The translations under genes and the position numbers were made by a program. This document shows, piece by piece, positions 18,220 through 26,906 of a stretch of 64,000 nt of DNA (positions within the stretch are counted from its first letter, which is position 1; the number at the start of each line of letters is the position of its first letter). Under the pieces are notes generated by a model that searched no databases, had not been told where the DNA came from, and saw only the letters and a program-made list of their open reading frames with translations. Source of the DNA: Microbacterium sp. PM5 (lineage in GTDB: Bacteria; Actinomycetota; Actinomycetes; Actinomycetales; Microbacteriaceae); NCBI RefSeq assembly GCF_003293595.1, contig NZ_CP022162.1, positions 1,798,483 to 1,862,482 on the forward strand, read 5' to 3'.

Positions 18220-19788
18220 GTGAGCGCAGACCGCGAGATCCAGCACATCATCGTCCCCGGGCGTCACCACCTGCTGACGAGGTTCCAGGCGGCCTATCTC
18301 GGCGAACTGCTCGCCGGCCGCGGGCGCGACGAGAACGGCGAGCCGATCGCGGTCGCCGACGGCGCCGTCGTCGTCTGGGCGGTCACGAGCGCGAATCACT
18401 CCGCGACACGGCGCAACCCGTTTCCGGGACATCGGCGCGAGGCGGCGATCGAGATCCTCGCGCACGTCGAGCACATGCCGTCGATCGTCGTGCCGGTGGT
18501 CGACGTCGCCCCCACGCCCCGCTTCGCCGAGATCACCCTCAAGGAGATCGGCTACGCGACGGCGCAGGGGGTCATCCCCGCGCCCGAGACCGCGATCATC
18601 GCCACCTCGACGCCGCAGGTCGCCGACATGTACCGCGCTCGGGGCTACCGCATCGCCCCGATGGAACGGGAGCATCCCGACACGCCGCGCACGCCCTGGC
18701 AGCTGCTCGACGAGCTCATGGCCGGCTCGGACGACTGGCGCGCCGACGCCCACCCGGCGAGCCTCGATATCGTCGACCGTTACGGCCTGGCGGCGCAGGC
18801 GCGCGAGATCGCGGCCGACCCCGTCATCGGCGACGAGGGCGGGCTCACCCCGACCCGCGACTACCGCACCTACAGCCGCGCGTTCGAGGAAGCCGCGGAG
18901 CGCAAGTGGGCCCAGGCGCGCCCCTGGATCGTGCCCGGCCGCATCGTCGACCTGGGCTGCGCGACGGGGGCGATGCTCGAGCTGGCATCGCAGGAGCCGG
19001 CCCTGGCCGAGTCTGATCTCATCGGCGTGGAGATCGCCCCCGAACTGTTCGCGGCGTGCGAGCACAAGAAGTCCGAGGGCGCGTTCGCGAACCCGAACAC
19101 GTTCTTCTACCGGCGCAACATCCTGGCCGGGCGCCTGTTCCCGGATCGCAGCATCGCCACGACGCTCAGCTTCGCGCTGACGCACGAGATCTACTCCTAC
19201 GGCGAGGGGATGCCGTCGCTGCGGGCCTTCGCGTCGGCGATCGCCGACCATACCGTGCCCGGTGGCGTGTGGATCAACTCCGATGTCTGCGGGCCGGCCG
19301 ATCCCGATCGCATCGTGCGGCTGCGGATGCGGGGCGGCGACGTCACGACGCCCGCGCGCGAGCTGACGGGATCCAACGACGAGGTCGCGGCATCCCTCGA
19401 CGCGCTGCCGGTGGGCAGCCGGGTCGCCCAGTTCGCGCAAGACTTCCGCGCGCTCAGCGGTGCCGCGTGGGAGTACGAGGTGCGCGACGAGCGGACGATC
19501 GAGCTGCGTCTGGCGGATGCCATGGAGTTCCTCGAGACCGTCTCGTACACCCGCAACTGGCTGTCGGAGATGCACGAGCAGTTCTGCGCGCTGTCGTGGG
19601 CCGACTGGCGCGAGCTGGTCGCATCGGTCGGACTCGAGATCGACGAGCGCTCGGGGCCCTGGCGCAACGACTGGCTCGTGGAGAATCGGTTCGCGCCCGC
19701 GGCATCCCTTCTCGGGCTCGACGACGAGCCGCTGGACTGGCCCGACACGCACATGCTGCTCGTCGCGCGCCGCCCGCTCGACGGCTGA
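18220..19788 (+). CDS. NMNAT-like nucleotidyltransferase domain fused to class I SAM methyltransferase
   Basis: The 522-residue protein has two parts. Residues 1 to about 165 resemble archaeal-type nicotinamide-mononucleotide adenylyltransferase: VPGRHHLLTRFQAAYL sits where GRFQPFHxGH would be, TSANHSATRRNPFPGHRRE mirrors the typical GSAQxSHTxxNPFTAGER, and ATSTPQVADMYRARGY lies where the ISxT motif would be. The HxGH catalytic residues are not conserved. The second part is a methyltransferase with motif I IVDLGCATGAML near residue 245. A TAACGT hexamer ends seven bases before GTG 18220, which decides the start. The gene is convergent with the NrtR-type regulator. The two-domain reading is by motif comparison only. 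Confidence 0.72.
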   Translation: MSADREIQHIIVPGRHHLLTRFQAAYLGELLAGRGRDENGEPIAVADGAVVVWAVTSANHSATRRNPFPGHRREAAIEILAHVEHMPSIVVPVVDVAPTPRFAEITLKEIGYATAQGVIPAPETAIIATSTPQVADMYRARGYRIAPMEREHPDTPRTPWQLLDELMAGSDDWRADAHPASLDIVDRYGLAAQAREIAADPVIGDEGGLTPTRDYRTYSRAFEEAAERKWAQARPWIVPGRIVDLGCATGAMLELASQEPALAESDLIGVEIAPELFAACEHKKSEGAFANPNTFFYRRNILAGRLFPDRSIATTLSFALTHEIYSYGEGMPSLRAFASAIADHTVPGGVWINSDVCGPADPDRIVRLRMRGGDVTTPARELTGSNDEVAASLDALPVGSRVAQFAQDFRALSGAAWEYEVRDERTIELRLADAMEFLETVSYTRNWLSEMHEQFCALSWADWRELVASVGLEIDERSGPWRNDWLVENRFAPAASLLGLDDEPLDWPDTHMLLVARRPLDG

Positions 19789-19834
19789 GGCCGACGCCGG
19801 CGGGCGGCGTCGGCCGCGTCGTCTTCCGCGTCGC

Positions 19835-19914
19835 GGATTCGGATCAGGTCAACAGAATCGGATGCCGCGCGCGGCGGCATCCGCATCCGTTCACACCCTC
19901 CGAATCCGTTGACC
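19835..19914. repeat. Nested palindromic repeat, family A copy 1
   Basis: An outer stem GGATTCGGA (19835-19843) pairs with TCCGAATCC (19899-19907). An inner stem of 18-base arms (19851-19868 with 19874-19891, 15 of 18 matches) encloses a five-base loop. CAACAGAATCGGATGCCG and CTCCGAATCCGTTG are shared exactly with the copy at 51197-51276. The element sits between two convergent genes and may serve as a bidirectional terminator. Confidence 0.7.
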
Positions 19915-19936
19915 GCCCGTGCGGCGTCCCGGCCGC

Positions 19937-20620
19937 TCAGCGCTCGGGGCGGGTGAACGGCGGCTGCAGCTGGCCGACGGGGCCGCGACGGAACAGCTGC
20001 GCGGGACGACCACCGTCGCGGGCCATGCCGCCGGCCGGCTCGACGAACCCGGCGGCGCCGGTGATCTTGCGGTGGAAGTTGCGCGGGTCGACGGGCACTC
20101 CCCAGACCGCTTCGTAGACCGCGCGCAGCTGCGCGATCGTGAACTCGGGCGGACAGAAAGCCATCGCCAGCGCGGAGTACTCGAGCTTCGCGCGCGCCCT
20201 CTCGAGGGCGTCGGCGAAGATCGCGACGTGGTCGAACGCCAGCGGCAGCGCACCGCCCTCGACGTCCGCGACCGGCCACCAGCGAGCAGAGCGGGCATCC
20301 GATCCCGCCGCAGGTTCGCCCAGATCGGGGGCGAGGGCCAACCAGGCGACGGTGACGACGCGTCCGCGCGGATCGCGATCCGGCGCGCTGTAGGTGCGCA
20401 CCTGCTCGAGGTGCACGCCCGCGGTCACCCCCGTCTCCTCGGCGAGCTCGCGGTACGCGGCGCTCTCGGCATCCTCATCGGCGAGGACGAAGCCCCCCGG
20501 CAACGCCCACATCCCCGCCGCCGGCGCGATGCCGCGCTCGACGAGGAGGACATGGAGCGCACGGTCACGGATGGTCAGCACCACGAGGTCGGCCGCGACC
20601 GCGAAGGAGAAGGGGTCCAC
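19937..20620 (-). CDS. NrtR-type Nudix hydrolase / transcriptional regulator
   Basis: The 227-residue protein has an N-terminal Nudix domain with a complete Nudix box (GFVLADE, then seven residues, REL, A, EE, T, GV, around residues 41-62) and a C-terminal part (AFDHVAIFADALERARAKLEYS and EFTIAQLRAVYEAVWGVPVD, then NFHRKI) that matches the winged helix of NrtR, the regulator of NAD metabolism that senses ADP-ribose and related nucleotides. Many NrtR proteins have a degenerate Nudix box; here it is intact, so hydrolysis is also possible. A TAGCCT hexamer ends six bases before GTG 20620. It is divergent from the SPFH/NAD-kinase-like pair across a clear operator. Confidence 0.85.
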   Translation of the reverse strand: MDPFSFAVAADLVVLTIRDRALHVLLVERGIAPAAGMWALPGGFVLADEDAESAAYRELAEETGVTAGVHLEQVRTYSAPDRDPRGRVVTVAWLALAPDLGEPAAGSDARSARWWPVADVEGGALPLAFDHVAIFADALERARAKLEYSALAMAFCPPEFTIAQLRAVYEAVWGVPVDPRNFHRKITGAAGFVEPAGGMARDGGRPAQLFRRGPVGQLQPPFTRPER

Positions 20621-20640
20621 GCGCACAGGCTACCTCAAAT

Positions 20641-20690
20641 CGTCATCTTGACGATAACTACCTAACGGGGTTATCGTCAAAGTGACACTA
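20641..20690. promoter_or_regulatory. Operator between NrtR-type regulator and SPFH operon
   Basis: A perfect inverted repeat, TTGACGATAAC (20648-20658) and GTTATCGTCAA (20670-20680), is separated by 11 bases. At each outer edge sits a small dyad of the form GTCA-N3-TGAC: GTCATCTTGAC at 20642-20652 and GTCAAAGTGAC at 20676-20686. The whole array lies just upstream of the nrtR-like promoter and about 25 bases before the SPFH start, so one regulator could control both directions. Binding by the adjacent NrtR-type protein is inferred from position. Confidence 0.75.
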
Positions 20691-20709
20691 ACGAGAGAAA
20701 GAGGACATC

Positions 20710-21738
20710 ATGGCCACCATCACCCGCCGCCCGTTCGTCCGCCACCTGAGCACGACGCCCACGATGCACGTCACCCACTTCCGTCGCGGCGGCATCCGCC
20801 ACGCCGGCGCAGGACAGGCGTTCTGGTTCCGCCCCCTGGATGCCGCGATCAGCGAGGTGCCGCTCGACGACCGCGAGCTGTCGGTCGTCGTGAGCCTGCG
20901 CACCGCCGACCTGCAGCAGCTGTCGGCTCCGGTCACGGCGACGTATCGCATCGTCGATCCCGACCTCGCCGCGCGCCGCATCGACTTCTCCATCGATCTG
21001 GCGACCGGCACGTGGACCGAGCAGCCGCTCGACGCGATCGCCGCGCCCCTGCACGGCGCGACGACCGCCGCCGTCGTGCACCTGCTGCAGCCGCGCACCC
21101 TCGACAACGCCCTGCGTGCCGACCTCGCCGAGCTGGGCACCGCGGCGACCGCCATGCTCGCCGCCGACACGCGCCTGACCGACCTGGGCATCGCCATCGT
21201 CGGGGTGCGGTTCTCGCTGCTGCGCGCCGAGCCGGACGTCGAGCGGGCCCTGCAGACCCCCGCCCGCGAGACGATCCAGCAGGATGCCGACAAGGCCACC
21301 TTCGCCCGCCGCGCCCTCGCGGTCGAGCGCGAGGCCGCGATCGGTGAGAACGAGCTGTCCAACCAGGTCGAGCTCGCGCGCCGACAGGAGGAGCTCGTCC
21401 AAGCGCGGGGACGCAACTCCCGCATCGAGGCGGAGCAGGCGGCCGCCGCTGCCGCGATCGCCGTGGAAGCGGAGGCCGAGCGCATCCGCACGAACGCACA
21501 GGCCCGGGCCGACGCCGACCGTGCGCTCGGTGAGGCGGCCGGCGCGGCCGAGCAGGCTCGAATGGCGGCACTGCGCGACGTGCCCGTCGAGGTACTGACC
21601 GCCCTGGCGATGCGCGAGCTGGCAGGCAACCTGCCCAGCATCGACCACCTGACCGTCACGCCCGACCTGCTCACCGACCTCGTGGGACGCCTCGGCGGCC
21701 GGGCCGTCGCGCAGACCGCGACACCGACGGGACGCTGA
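20710..21738 (+). CDS. Soluble SPFH/band-7 domain protein
   Basis: The 342-residue protein has an SPFH (stomatin/prohibitin/flotillin) domain in its first 200 residues and a coiled-coil region rich in Ala, Glu and Arg (ERIRTNAQARADADRALGEA) from about 200 to 290. Unlike the flotillin at 25521, it has no N-terminal membrane segment. The start ATG has AAAGAGGA six bases upstream. It is followed after one base by the NAD-kinase-like gene, so the two are co-translated. The divergent NrtR-type regulator and the operator in front suggest control by NAD-derived nucleotides. The molecular role is unknown; SPFH proteins form oligomeric scaffolds. Confidence 0.85.
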   Translation: MATITRRPFVRHLSTTPTMHVTHFRRGGIRHAGAGQAFWFRPLDAAISEVPLDDRELSVVVSLRTADLQQLSAPVTATYRIVDPDLAARRIDFSIDLATGTWTEQPLDAIAAPLHGATTAAVVHLLQPRTLDNALRADLAELGTAATAMLAADTRLTDLGIAIVGVRFSLLRAEPDVERALQTPARETIQQDADKATFARRALAVEREAAIGENELSNQVELARRQEELVQARGRNSRIEAEQAAAAAAIAVEAEAERIRTNAQARADADRALGEAAGAAEQARMAALRDVPVEVLTALAMRELAGNLPSIDHLTVTPDLLTDLVGRLGGRAVAQTATPTGR

Positions 21739-21739
21739 G

Positions 21740-22627
21740 ATGACCGCCCCTCGAGCCGTCATCGTGCATCGGGCGAGCGAGCTCACCGAACTGCTCGCCC
21801 GGCACGGCACGCGCGGCCAGGTCGCCTTCTTCCTCGATCAGCGAGGCCAGAGCCTCGCCGCCGTCGAAGAGCGGCACGAGCGCACCCGCGCCGCCCTGGC
21901 CGACGTGTCCGCGGGGCTCCCGGTCGATTGGCGGCGAGCCACGGTCGAACGCAGCGACCTCGCCCGCTTCGTCTTCGAACCCGACGACGTCGTGCTCGTC
22001 GTCGGACAGGACGGGCTCGTCGCCAACGCCGCGAAGTACCTCGGCATCCAACCCGTCATCGGCATCGACCCGCTGCCCGGCGTCAATGCCGGGGTGCTCG
22101 TCCCGCACACCCCCGCGGCAGGAGTCGCCCTCGCCGCCGCCGCGCAGGCGGGAACCGCACCGATCTGCGAGCGCACGATGGTGCAGGTGCGCACCGACGA
22201 CGGTCAGTCGCTCACGGCGCTGAACGAGGTGATGATCGGCCAGAGCGGCCACCAGTCGGCGCGCTACACGCTCGAGGTCGGCGGTCGCCGGGAGCGACAG
22301 TCCTCGTCGGGCGTGATCGTCGGCACCGGCACGGGAGCGACGGGATGGTGCTCCTCGATCGCACGTTTGCAGGCACCAGGGATGCCGCTGCCCACCGCCA
22401 CCGAGAGCGCACTCGCCTGGTTCGTCCGGGAGCCGTGGCCGTCGCCGAGCACGGGCGCAGACCTGTTCGCGGGTCGACTCGACGGCGGGGAGGTGACCCT
22501 CCGCGTCGAGTCGGACGTGCTCGTCGCGTTCGGCGATGGGATGGAGGACGACCGCCTGTCGCTGTCCTGGGGTCAGCGGGTGAGCGTCGGTGTCGCCGAC
22601 CGGACGCTGCGCACCGTCACGGCGTAG
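21740..22627 (+). CDS. NAD kinase-like protein
   Basis: The 295-residue protein follows the NAD kinase fold motifs in order: VLVVGQDGLVANAAKYL at about residues 84-100 in place of GGDGTxLxAA, then a GVNAGVL-type segment, LNEVMIG near residue 162 matching the NE motif, and SSGVIVGTGTGATGW near 190-204 in place of GVIVSTPTGSTAY. The catalytic-type Asp of GGDG is kept but the second Gly is Gln. It is therefore a divergent family member; it may phosphorylate NAD or only bind a dinucleotide. It is coupled to the SPFH gene and lies next to an NrtR-type regulator. It is not the housekeeping NAD kinase, which should be elsewhere. Confidence 0.75.
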   Translation: MTAPRAVIVHRASELTELLARHGTRGQVAFFLDQRGQSLAAVEERHERTRAALADVSAGLPVDWRRATVERSDLARFVFEPDDVVLVVGQDGLVANAAKYLGIQPVIGIDPLPGVNAGVLVPHTPAAGVALAAAAQAGTAPICERTMVQVRTDDGQSLTALNEVMIGQSGHQSARYTLEVGGRRERQSSSGVIVGTGTGATGWCSSIARLQAPGMPLPTATESALAWFVREPWPSPSTGADLFAGRLDGGEVTLRVESDVLVAFGDGMEDDRLSLSWGQRVSVGVADRTLRTVTA

Positions 22628-25520: not shown

Positions 25521-26906
25521 GTGGAGATTCTTGCCGCTGGGGGTGCACTGGTGATCGTCGGCATCGCCGTCGTCACCGCGATCGTCCTCCTGATTTTCCT
25601 GCTGATCATGGTGCGCGCGTGGTACAAGGTCGCCAAGGCCGACCAGGCGCTCGTGGTGGTCGGCAAGAGCCAGAAGAACGCCAGCGGCGAGTCGTCGCGC
25701 ATCTCGGTGATCACCGGCGGAGGCGCCCTCGTCAACCCGCTCACGCAGCGCGCCGAGATGATCTCGCTGCGCGCCCGCCAGATCAAGATGGAGCCGACGG
25801 CACAGGCCTCCAACGGTGTGACGGTCAACGTCTCGGGCGTCGCACTGGTCAAGATCGGCTCCGACCCCGAGTTCGTCCGCCGCGCAGCGGAGCGCTTCCT
25901 CTCCCAGGACGGCGCGATCGAGCAGTTCACGACCGAGCAGCTCGAAGGCGCCCTGCGCGGCGTCGTCGCGACGCTGACCGTCGAGCAGCTGATGAAGGAT
26001 CGGCAGAAGCTGTCCGACCAGATCGCCGAGGGCATCAAGAGCGACCTGCTCGCCCAGGGACTCATCCTCGACTCGTTCCAGATCCAGGGCGTCACCGACA
26101 AGAACGGCTACATCGACGCCCTCGGCGCGACCGAGGTCGAGCGCGTGCGCCGAGAGGCCGAGGTCGCCCGTATCAACGCCGCCCGCGAGGTTCGCGCCCG
26201 ACAGATCGCGACCGACGAGGCGAACCTCGTCGAGCAGACCGCGTTCGACAAGAACTCCGCCGCCGCGGCGGCCGAAGTCGGTCGCGCCCGCGCCGAGGCC
26301 GAGCAGGCCGAAGCGCTCGCGCGTGCCGAGCGTGAGCAGGCCGTGCTGCTGCAGGGAGCCGAGAACAAGCAGGCCCAGCTGGATGCCGACATCAAGAAGG
26401 TCGCCGACGCCTCCCTCTACGAGCGCCAGCGCGCGGCGGATGCCGCCGCGTATGGCGAGGTCAAGGCCGCCGAGGCGCGCGCGCAGATCGCAGCGCAGGA
26501 GGCGGAGGCCACCCGGCTTCGCGCCCAGGCCGAGGCCGACGCGGTGCGGCTCGTGGGCGAGGCGCGGGCGGCGGCCATCGAGGCCGAGGCCGAAGCCCTC
26601 TCCAAGAACCAGGAGGCTCTGCTCGCGCAGCGCGCGCTCGAGGCGCTCGTGCCGATGATGACCGAGTTCGCGCGAGGCTTCGACAAGGTCGGATCGATCA
26701 CGGTGCTCGGCGGCGAGGGGGCGTCCAGCCACATGGCCGCCGAATCGGCCTCGAGCATGCGGGCGAGCTTCGACGCCATCCAGGCGGCCACCGGCATCGA
26801 CCTGCGTCAGGTCATCCAGGGGCAGGCGACCGGCCGCGGGATGGCCCAGGGGCTCCGCGACGAGCAGTCGGTCGCCGCTGAGCCGCCGGTGACCACCGAG
26901 AGCTGA
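25521..26906 (+). CDS. Flotillin-like SPFH protein
   Basis: The 461-residue protein has an N-terminal membrane segment (VIVGIAVVTAIVLLIFLLIM), an SPFH domain to about residue 200, and a long Ala/Glu-rich coiled coil (about 200-375) with EAEQAEALARAEREQA and EAEATRLRAQAEADAV, then a flexible C-terminal tail. This matches bacterial flotillin (FloT/YuaG type), which organises membrane microdomains. Start is GTG at 25521; GGAAG lies 12 bases upstream. It stands alone, divergent from DUF4870 and convergent with menC. It is the second SPFH protein in the window and is clearly different from the soluble one at 20710. Confidence 0.9.
   Translation: MEILAAGGALVIVGIAVVTAIVLLIFLLIMVRAWYKVAKADQALVVVGKSQKNASGESSRISVITGGGALVNPLTQRAEMISLRARQIKMEPTAQASNGVTVNVSGVALVKIGSDPEFVRRAAERFLSQDGAIEQFTTEQLEGALRGVVATLTVEQLMKDRQKLSDQIAEGIKSDLLAQGLILDSFQIQGVTDKNGYIDALGATEVERVRREAEVARINAAREVRARQIATDEANLVEQTAFDKNSAAAAAEVGRARAEAEQAEALARAEREQAVLLQGAENKQAQLDADIKKVADASLYERQRAADAAAYGEVKAAEARAQIAAQEAEATRLRAQAEADAVRLVGEARAAAIEAEAEALSKNQEALLAQRALEALVPMMTEFARGFDKVGSITVLGGEGASSHMAAESASSMRASFDAIQAATGIDLRQVIQGQATGRGMAQGLRDEQSVAAEPPVTTES

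Follow-up and report, generated by a model that had tools for sequence, protein, structure and literature searches.

The 64,000-nucleotide (nt) window of Microbacterium sp. PM5 analysed here (NZ_CP022162.1; all coordinates without a locus or contig label are positions in this whole stretch) comes from a genome of 3.16 Mb in a single contig. It carries a two-gene operon for an SPFH/Band 7 protein and a kinase resembling human mitochondrial NADK2, a divergent gene for an NrtR-type regulator and, convergent with the latter, a fusion gene. An earlier sequence-only reading had placed four open reading frames here, with the SPFH and kinase-like frames one base apart, and had proposed a regulated module with a nicotinamide adenine dinucleotide (NAD) theme. 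The layout was confirmed, the kinase-like frame beginning 1 base past the SPFH stop, and the theme is supported by the results below. The tandem operators go beyond what that reading saw. The features are as follows.

19937..20626, minus strand: NrtR-type regulator, with a Nudix sensor and an NrtR winged helix
20426..20494, minus strand: intact Nudix box of the regulator, residues 45-67
20637..20657, palindrome without strand: operator 1
20671..20691, palindrome without strand: operator 2
20710..21738, plus strand: SPFH/Band 7 protein, 342 amino acids (aa), without a clear transmembrane segment
21740..22627, plus strand: NADK2-like kinase, 295 aa
22004..22018, plus strand: GQDGL motif of the kinase, counterpart of NADK GGDGT, holding D91
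22223..22228, plus strand: NE motif of the kinase (N162 E163), from the aligned kinases
22325..22348, plus strand: TGTGATGW motif of the kinase (canonical TPTGSTAY; human NADK2 TGTGSKAW)
18220..19788, plus strand: fusion of an NMNAT-like domain (NMNAT, nicotinamide mononucleotide adenylyltransferase) with an S-adenosylmethionine (SAM) methyltransferase, 522 aa, convergent with the regulator; an optional neighbour
18241..18813, plus strand: predicted NMNAT-fold domain of the fusion, residues 8-198
18856..19779, plus strand: class I SAM-methyltransferase domain of the fusion, about residues 213-520

The gene order was examined in 80 named-genome loci, the best 80 of 570 confirmed in a pattern scan. 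The SPFH gene lies directly upstream of the kinase gene in 78 of them; in the other two (L002, L003) the contig start is too near to tell. A 4-nt overlap of SPFH stop and kinase start was counted in 44 of the 78 loci, compared with the 1-nt gap of the window, and the SPFH frame is broken (139 aa) in one. The regulator is divergent from SPFH in 64/78 loci, one of these (L078) being truncated where its contig stops. The loci belong to Micrococcales, Mycobacteriales-type genera, Streptomyces, Kribbella, Actinoplanes, Lentzea and uncultured Acidimicrobiales. The co-occurrence of SPFH, kinase and Nudix-winged-helix genes, which the sequence-only reading had put forward for checking, is thus conserved far past close relatives, Acidimicrobiales included.

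The module is patchily distributed: among evenly drawn genomes, kinase orthologues (E < 1e-50) turned up in 8 of 198 from the phylum, 51 of 296 from the class and 7 of 198 from the genus. A further 29 matches in the phylum sample were weak (E 5e-4 to 5e-13) and resembled ordinary NAD kinases. The phylum and class samples together gave 52 genomes with an orthologue, from which the 32 best loci were fetched, the window's own included; SPFH adjoins the kinase in all 32, and the regulator is partly visible in 14, the flanks being short. No gene family beyond the trio was widely recurrent in the 80 loci, where open reading frames were called mechanically and several of the recurring clusters lie antisense across module genes. 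Searches of the open-licence literature gave no description of the module and no work mentioning SPFH together with NADK, although an earlier mention elsewhere is possible. That the SPFH and kinase genes form a regulated, conserved operon is practically certain, and the conserved regulatory module is well supported, its chemistry being putative.

The two tandem operators are palindromic, and their pattern has a chance expectation of 0.01 in the window. Operator 1 holds the candidate -35 box of the SPFH promoter (TTGACG, 20648-20653) and the candidate -10 box of the regulator promoter (20651-20656, minus strand), while operator 2 holds the candidate -10 box of the SPFH promoter (TATCGT, 20672-20677) and the candidate -35 box of the regulator promoter (20675-20680, minus strand). 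By direct reading, TTGACG and TATCGT stand 18 nt apart in the window, with a mirror arrangement in the opposite direction for the regulator gene. We surveyed 79 upstream regions (the window and 78 loci), counting a site at 12 or more of the 18 consensus letters. Both sites were present in 64/79, whereas 4,481 random windows from the same loci gave no pair and only eight single sites of at least 13. The spacing of the 64 pairs was 34 nt in 42, 33 in 8, 45 in 9, 44 in 2, 27 in 2 and 36 in 1; since 45 equals 34 plus one helical turn, this suggests cooperative binding on one DNA face. The TTGACN and TATCGN boxes were 18 nt apart in 44 of the 79 upstream regions, 17 in 8 and 20 in 1, with no such pair in 26.

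The regulator passed the Pfam cut-offs for NUDIX (PF00293, 72.5 bits; cut-off 21.1) and NrtR_WHD (PF21906, 54.6 bits; cut-off 27), and its closest solved structures were 3gz5 and the AraR regulator 5bs6. Its Nudix box, described as intact from the sequence, is indeed so: the key residues G, E, R, E, E, E and G are kept in the window protein and in 26/26 aligned regulators. The genomes of all 14 loci without an adjacent regulator were searched for one in trans. Eight held a regulator of at least 324 bits; seven of these have both operators at the module, and the eighth (L079) combines a good site with a weak one. A site scoring at least 14 lies upstream of six of the eight trans regulator genes (L176-L181). 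The other six genomes held weaker regulators only (149-178 bits; 303 bits in L048), and their modules have no operator in four cases, a variant palindrome in L025 and a weak pair in L066. Upstream of SPFH, L025 (Nocardia rosealba) carries the perfect variant palindrome TTATGGTCACTATGACCATAA in place of the operator, possibly reflecting a regulator switch in a genome without a strong regulator of the module group. Sister Nudix-winged-helix regulators in L185 (G964) and L189 (G963) have an ADP-ribosyl-hydrolase-like gene (L189 5726-6739) or other unrelated genes nearby. In a second group of regulators the recognition region differs (LHAGNFHRKVLS).

Scanning 11 genomes with the strict operator pattern and one mismatch revealed 30 distinct sites across 10 genomes and none in the reversed control. 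By position, sixteen were at SPFH promoters, five at regulator promoters and four at NAD genes; five were unassigned. The operator precedes nadE and nadA in a Streptosporangiaceae genome (G957; L303, L307) and an Actinomadura genome (G966; L305, L306), the only two genomes with NAD-gene operators, and these sites end at most 30 nt from the start codons. Both nadE products match NCBIfam NAD+ synthase (674 and 630 bits) and both nadA products quinolinate synthase TIGR00550 (325 and 321 bits), all above cut-off. Judged by sequence, these operators are the firmest tie between the operon and NAD metabolism. The sequence-only reading had contrasted NrtR control of NAD synthesis genes with control of SPFH scaffolds; that contrast fails because the same operator precedes nadA and nadE in these two genomes.

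In a quick FastTree tree (support values absent), the trans regulators of L182 and L184, from the nadA/nadE genomes, group with module-adjacent regulators; the separation is imperfect, however, as L015, L059 and L064 are module-adjacent yet fall in the other group. The L182 (5012-5692) and L184 (5003-5662) regulators have degenerate Nudix boxes (RLMADRAG, RVLAERSG), unlike most module-adjacent ones, and no site of score 14 or more was found near their genes. Among the five unassigned sites, no NAD-related gene was recognised by eye near the two in G965:C24 or the one in G957:C106; the remaining two are in G957:C63 and G966:C6. At about 5169-5214 of L302 (G965:C24), two operator-like palindromes are spaced by 25 nt, and none of the adjoining genes is recognisable as an NAD gene. 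With up to two mismatches, the window's genome showed only the two module sites and one two-mismatch palindrome at G000:C1:672436-672456, outside the window.

A defence module against NAD-depleting attack, or a role with capped nucleotides, had also been proposed from the sequence. ADP-ribose-type sensing and the patchy occurrence in the genus (7/198) would fit defence, as would the sister regulators beside the ADP-ribosyl-hydrolase-like gene in L189, a setting resembling systems predicted in PMC9503650. However, neither the SPFH nor the kinase protein matched a PADLOC family at E ≤ 0.1 (matches of the fusion and of the Nudix protein were confined to domain-level models), no relative was found in viral contigs (14 pattern stretches, none confirmed), no conserved effector gene lies past the trio in the 80 loci, and the operators are shared with nadA and nadE. 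On these PADLOC, viral-contig and 80-locus results the defence reading was rejected, and we consider it very improbable; the capped-nucleotide role gained no support from the PADLOC and viral-contig searches either.

The kinase-like protein is predicted by its AlphaFold model to have the NAD kinase fold, the outcome that the sequence-only reading had set beforehand as a check. The GGDGT loop is altered in all 65 aligned kinases (GQDGL in 58, GPDGL in 7) with its aspartate retained; D91 is invariant in 65/65, and so is N162, within an NE motif in 62/65 and ND in 3/65. The protein shares the active-site variant SSG...TGTG..W with human NADK2, which is reported to be an NAD kinase. Pfam NAD_kinase matched 17/65 family members at E ≤ 0.01, the best at 3.6e-05. 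Kinase-like matches in G259, G303, G353, G405, G423 and G473 were split in two stretches, mostly inside one open frame, pointing to an insertion within one family.

The SPFH protein passed the Pfam cut-off for Band_7 (40.5 bits; cut-off 23.6) and has a helical C-terminal part. By hydropathy it lacks the membrane anchor typical of flotillins and stomatins: its highest 19-residue value is 1.27, compared with 3.37 for the flotillin-like protein at 25521. A value of 1.6 or more was reached in just 3 of the 78 loci, so a clear membrane helix is absent in 75. The flotillin-type, membrane-anchored gene (25521-26906, plus strand) is a second SPFH gene, located 3 kb beyond the module on its downstream side; genes neighbouring it are also found next to the module in other genomes of Microbacterium. 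The clients of soluble SPFH proteins are often unknown. The general scaffold role of SPFH proteins, and the inseparability of SPFH and kinase across the examined loci, would suit a kinase fold that is a non-catalytic or weakly catalytic NAD sensor gating an SPFH assembly acting elsewhere, in proteolysis or envelope stress. We regard this as improbable, given the catalytic aspartate in 65/65 sequences, the NE motif in 62/65 and an operator shared with NAD synthesis genes.

We lean, with modest confidence, towards a mechanism in which an NrtR-type repressor governs a two-gene operon for an oligomer-forming SPFH protein and an NADK2-like NAD(H) kinase. Bound to the tandem operators, two units of the repressor would cover both boxes, -35 and -10, of each divergent promoter and silence the operon and the regulator's own gene. 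A rising NAD-breakdown product, most likely ADP-ribose as in studied NrtR proteins, would free the DNA of repressor, and the intact Nudix site may next hydrolyse the inducer and reset the switch. PMC6800001 reports that MsNrtR leaves DNA upon ADP-ribose and is without hydrolase activity. A scaffold assembled from the coupled SPFH protein would bind or regulate the kinase, and the kinase would convert NAD(H) to NADP(H), the phosphorylated form. The sequence basis of this proposal is the conserved operon and operators, the operator sharing with nadA/nadE in two genomes, and the NADK fold with its key acidic residues; we infer the ligand, the direction of regulation, the kinase substrate, the SPFH-kinase contact, the scaffold role of SPFH and the hydrolysis of the inducer. 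The operon most likely provides an inducible, scaffolded NAD(H) kinase replenishing NADP(H) as NAD turnover rises, and the SPFH-kinase unit probably adjusts cellular NADP supply. A bolder version is put forward tentatively: a widespread actinobacterial NAD-to-NADP unit whose kinase is housed or gated by a soluble SPFH assembly and switched on by a self-resetting Nudix repressor that senses and destroys the NAD-breakdown signal.

Several observations weigh against the proposed NAD(H) kinase operon. The regulator scored 123.8 bits against the cut-off of 400 of the NCBIfam equivalog NF050029 (ADP-ribose-responsive repressor), which places it only in the wider NrtR family, outside that equivalog. 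A clear tandem pair of the consensus is missing in 6 of the 79 upstream regions, and nine further loci, all Lentzea, have a single site. No operator was found in L018, L030, L048 and L051; L048 has none despite its 303-bit regulator, and L066, whose regulator reaches only 153 bits, still has a weak pair (scores 12 and 13). No NAD synthesis gene was seen with an operator in the window's genome at up to two mismatches. The kinase scored 16.8 bits with Pfam NAD_kinase, below the cut-off of 25.5, and together with the GQDG/GPDG loop this means that NAD may not be the substrate. A canonical NADK gene is already present elsewhere in the genome. A nadK1/nadK2 pair is reported in Streptomyces, Amycolatopsis and Kribbella (PMC6675116).

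Alternatively, the kinase-like protein might phosphorylate another adenosine-containing nucleotide (for example, ADP-ribose or a dinucleotide that is damaged), in which case the operon would remove or tag its own inducing signal. The loop change in 65/65, the existing canonical NADK and a regulator from a family sensing ADP-ribose (PMC6800001) speak for this alternative, but the SSG...TGTG..W variant shared with human NADK2 and the invariant D91 and N162 speak against it, and we judge it unlikely.

For the fusion gene, the sequence-only reading had suggested an NMNAT-like domain and a possible mere neighbour. The NMNAT (nucleotidyltransferase) fold is predicted for residues 8-198 by the AlphaFold model, as the check set beforehand had anticipated, but the catalytic HxGH is lost: 45 of 46 aligned rows have TxFQ (TRFQ 41, TTFQ 2, TQFQ 1, TAFQ 1) and one has a gap. 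As aligned, the domain is without catalytic histidines, and with HxGH missing in 46/46, NMNAT activity was dropped as the default. Every Pfam methyltransferase model scored below its cut-off. The neighbour view held, as the fusion adjoins the trio in 3 of the 80 named loci and in 0 of 22 fetched loci, where it stands alone; no conserved partner was found around the fusion gene in 23 loci.

Some evidence would nevertheless suit a true fourth component: in the genus sample all five genomes with the fusion are among the seven with the kinase, G933 has exactly the four genes between glyS and a DUF4870 gene where three module-less genomes have 55-110 nt, and in M. wolinskyi the fusion lies 23 nt past the kinase in the same orientation. 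This is doubtful, as the gene is absent from 77/80 named loci, occurs in 72 of 200 genomes of another family and has no operator before it, and the genus pattern may reflect one gain event. A constant place in the module was rejected on the 3/80, 0/22 and 72/200 counts.

With this module, NrtR-type control reaches beyond NAD synthesis to a coupled operon of SPFH and kinase across Actinomycetota, and the tandem operators on both promoters offer a concrete, directly testable target sequence. If the kinase acts on NAD(H), module-bearing genera would have a second, inducible NADP source; if not, it would be a kinase-fold enzyme with a new nucleotide substrate. A soluble SPFH protein would gain a defined biochemical partner, and the study of human NADK2 a bacterial relative. 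If the bolder version is true, NADP supply would have its own regulated compartment-like complex, a bacterial counterpart of human NADK2.

Compared with known systems, the module resembles the NrtR family (MsNrtR, SoNrtR/3gz5) in its Nudix domain and NrtR winged helix, its divergent order, its palindromic operators before the regulator's own gene and its targets, and nadA and nadE among the putative targets in two genomes. Unlike that family, its probable main target is the SPFH-kinase operon; its operator is TTATCGTCAnnnTGACGATAA in tandem rather than the MsNrtR GTTTTCGA-N7-TCGAAAAC, and its Nudix box is intact, whereas that of MsNrtR is reported as less conserved and inactive (PMC6800001). 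The SPFH protein shares the Band_7 domain and helical C-terminal part of flotillins but, in 75/78 loci, not a clear membrane helix, which the flotillin-like gene at 25521-26906 has. The fusion differs from archaeal NMN adenylyltransferase (1hyb, 1ej2) in having TxFQ for HxGH and an added methyltransferase. Canonical bacterial NAD kinase (PpnK/NadK) has its own separate gene in the same genome, and the module protein is below the Pfam cut-off for that family. Relative to human mitochondrial NADK2 (7r4l, 7n29), the module kinase has GQDGL or GPDGL for GGDGT, shares about 18-24% identity and is coupled to an SPFH gene.

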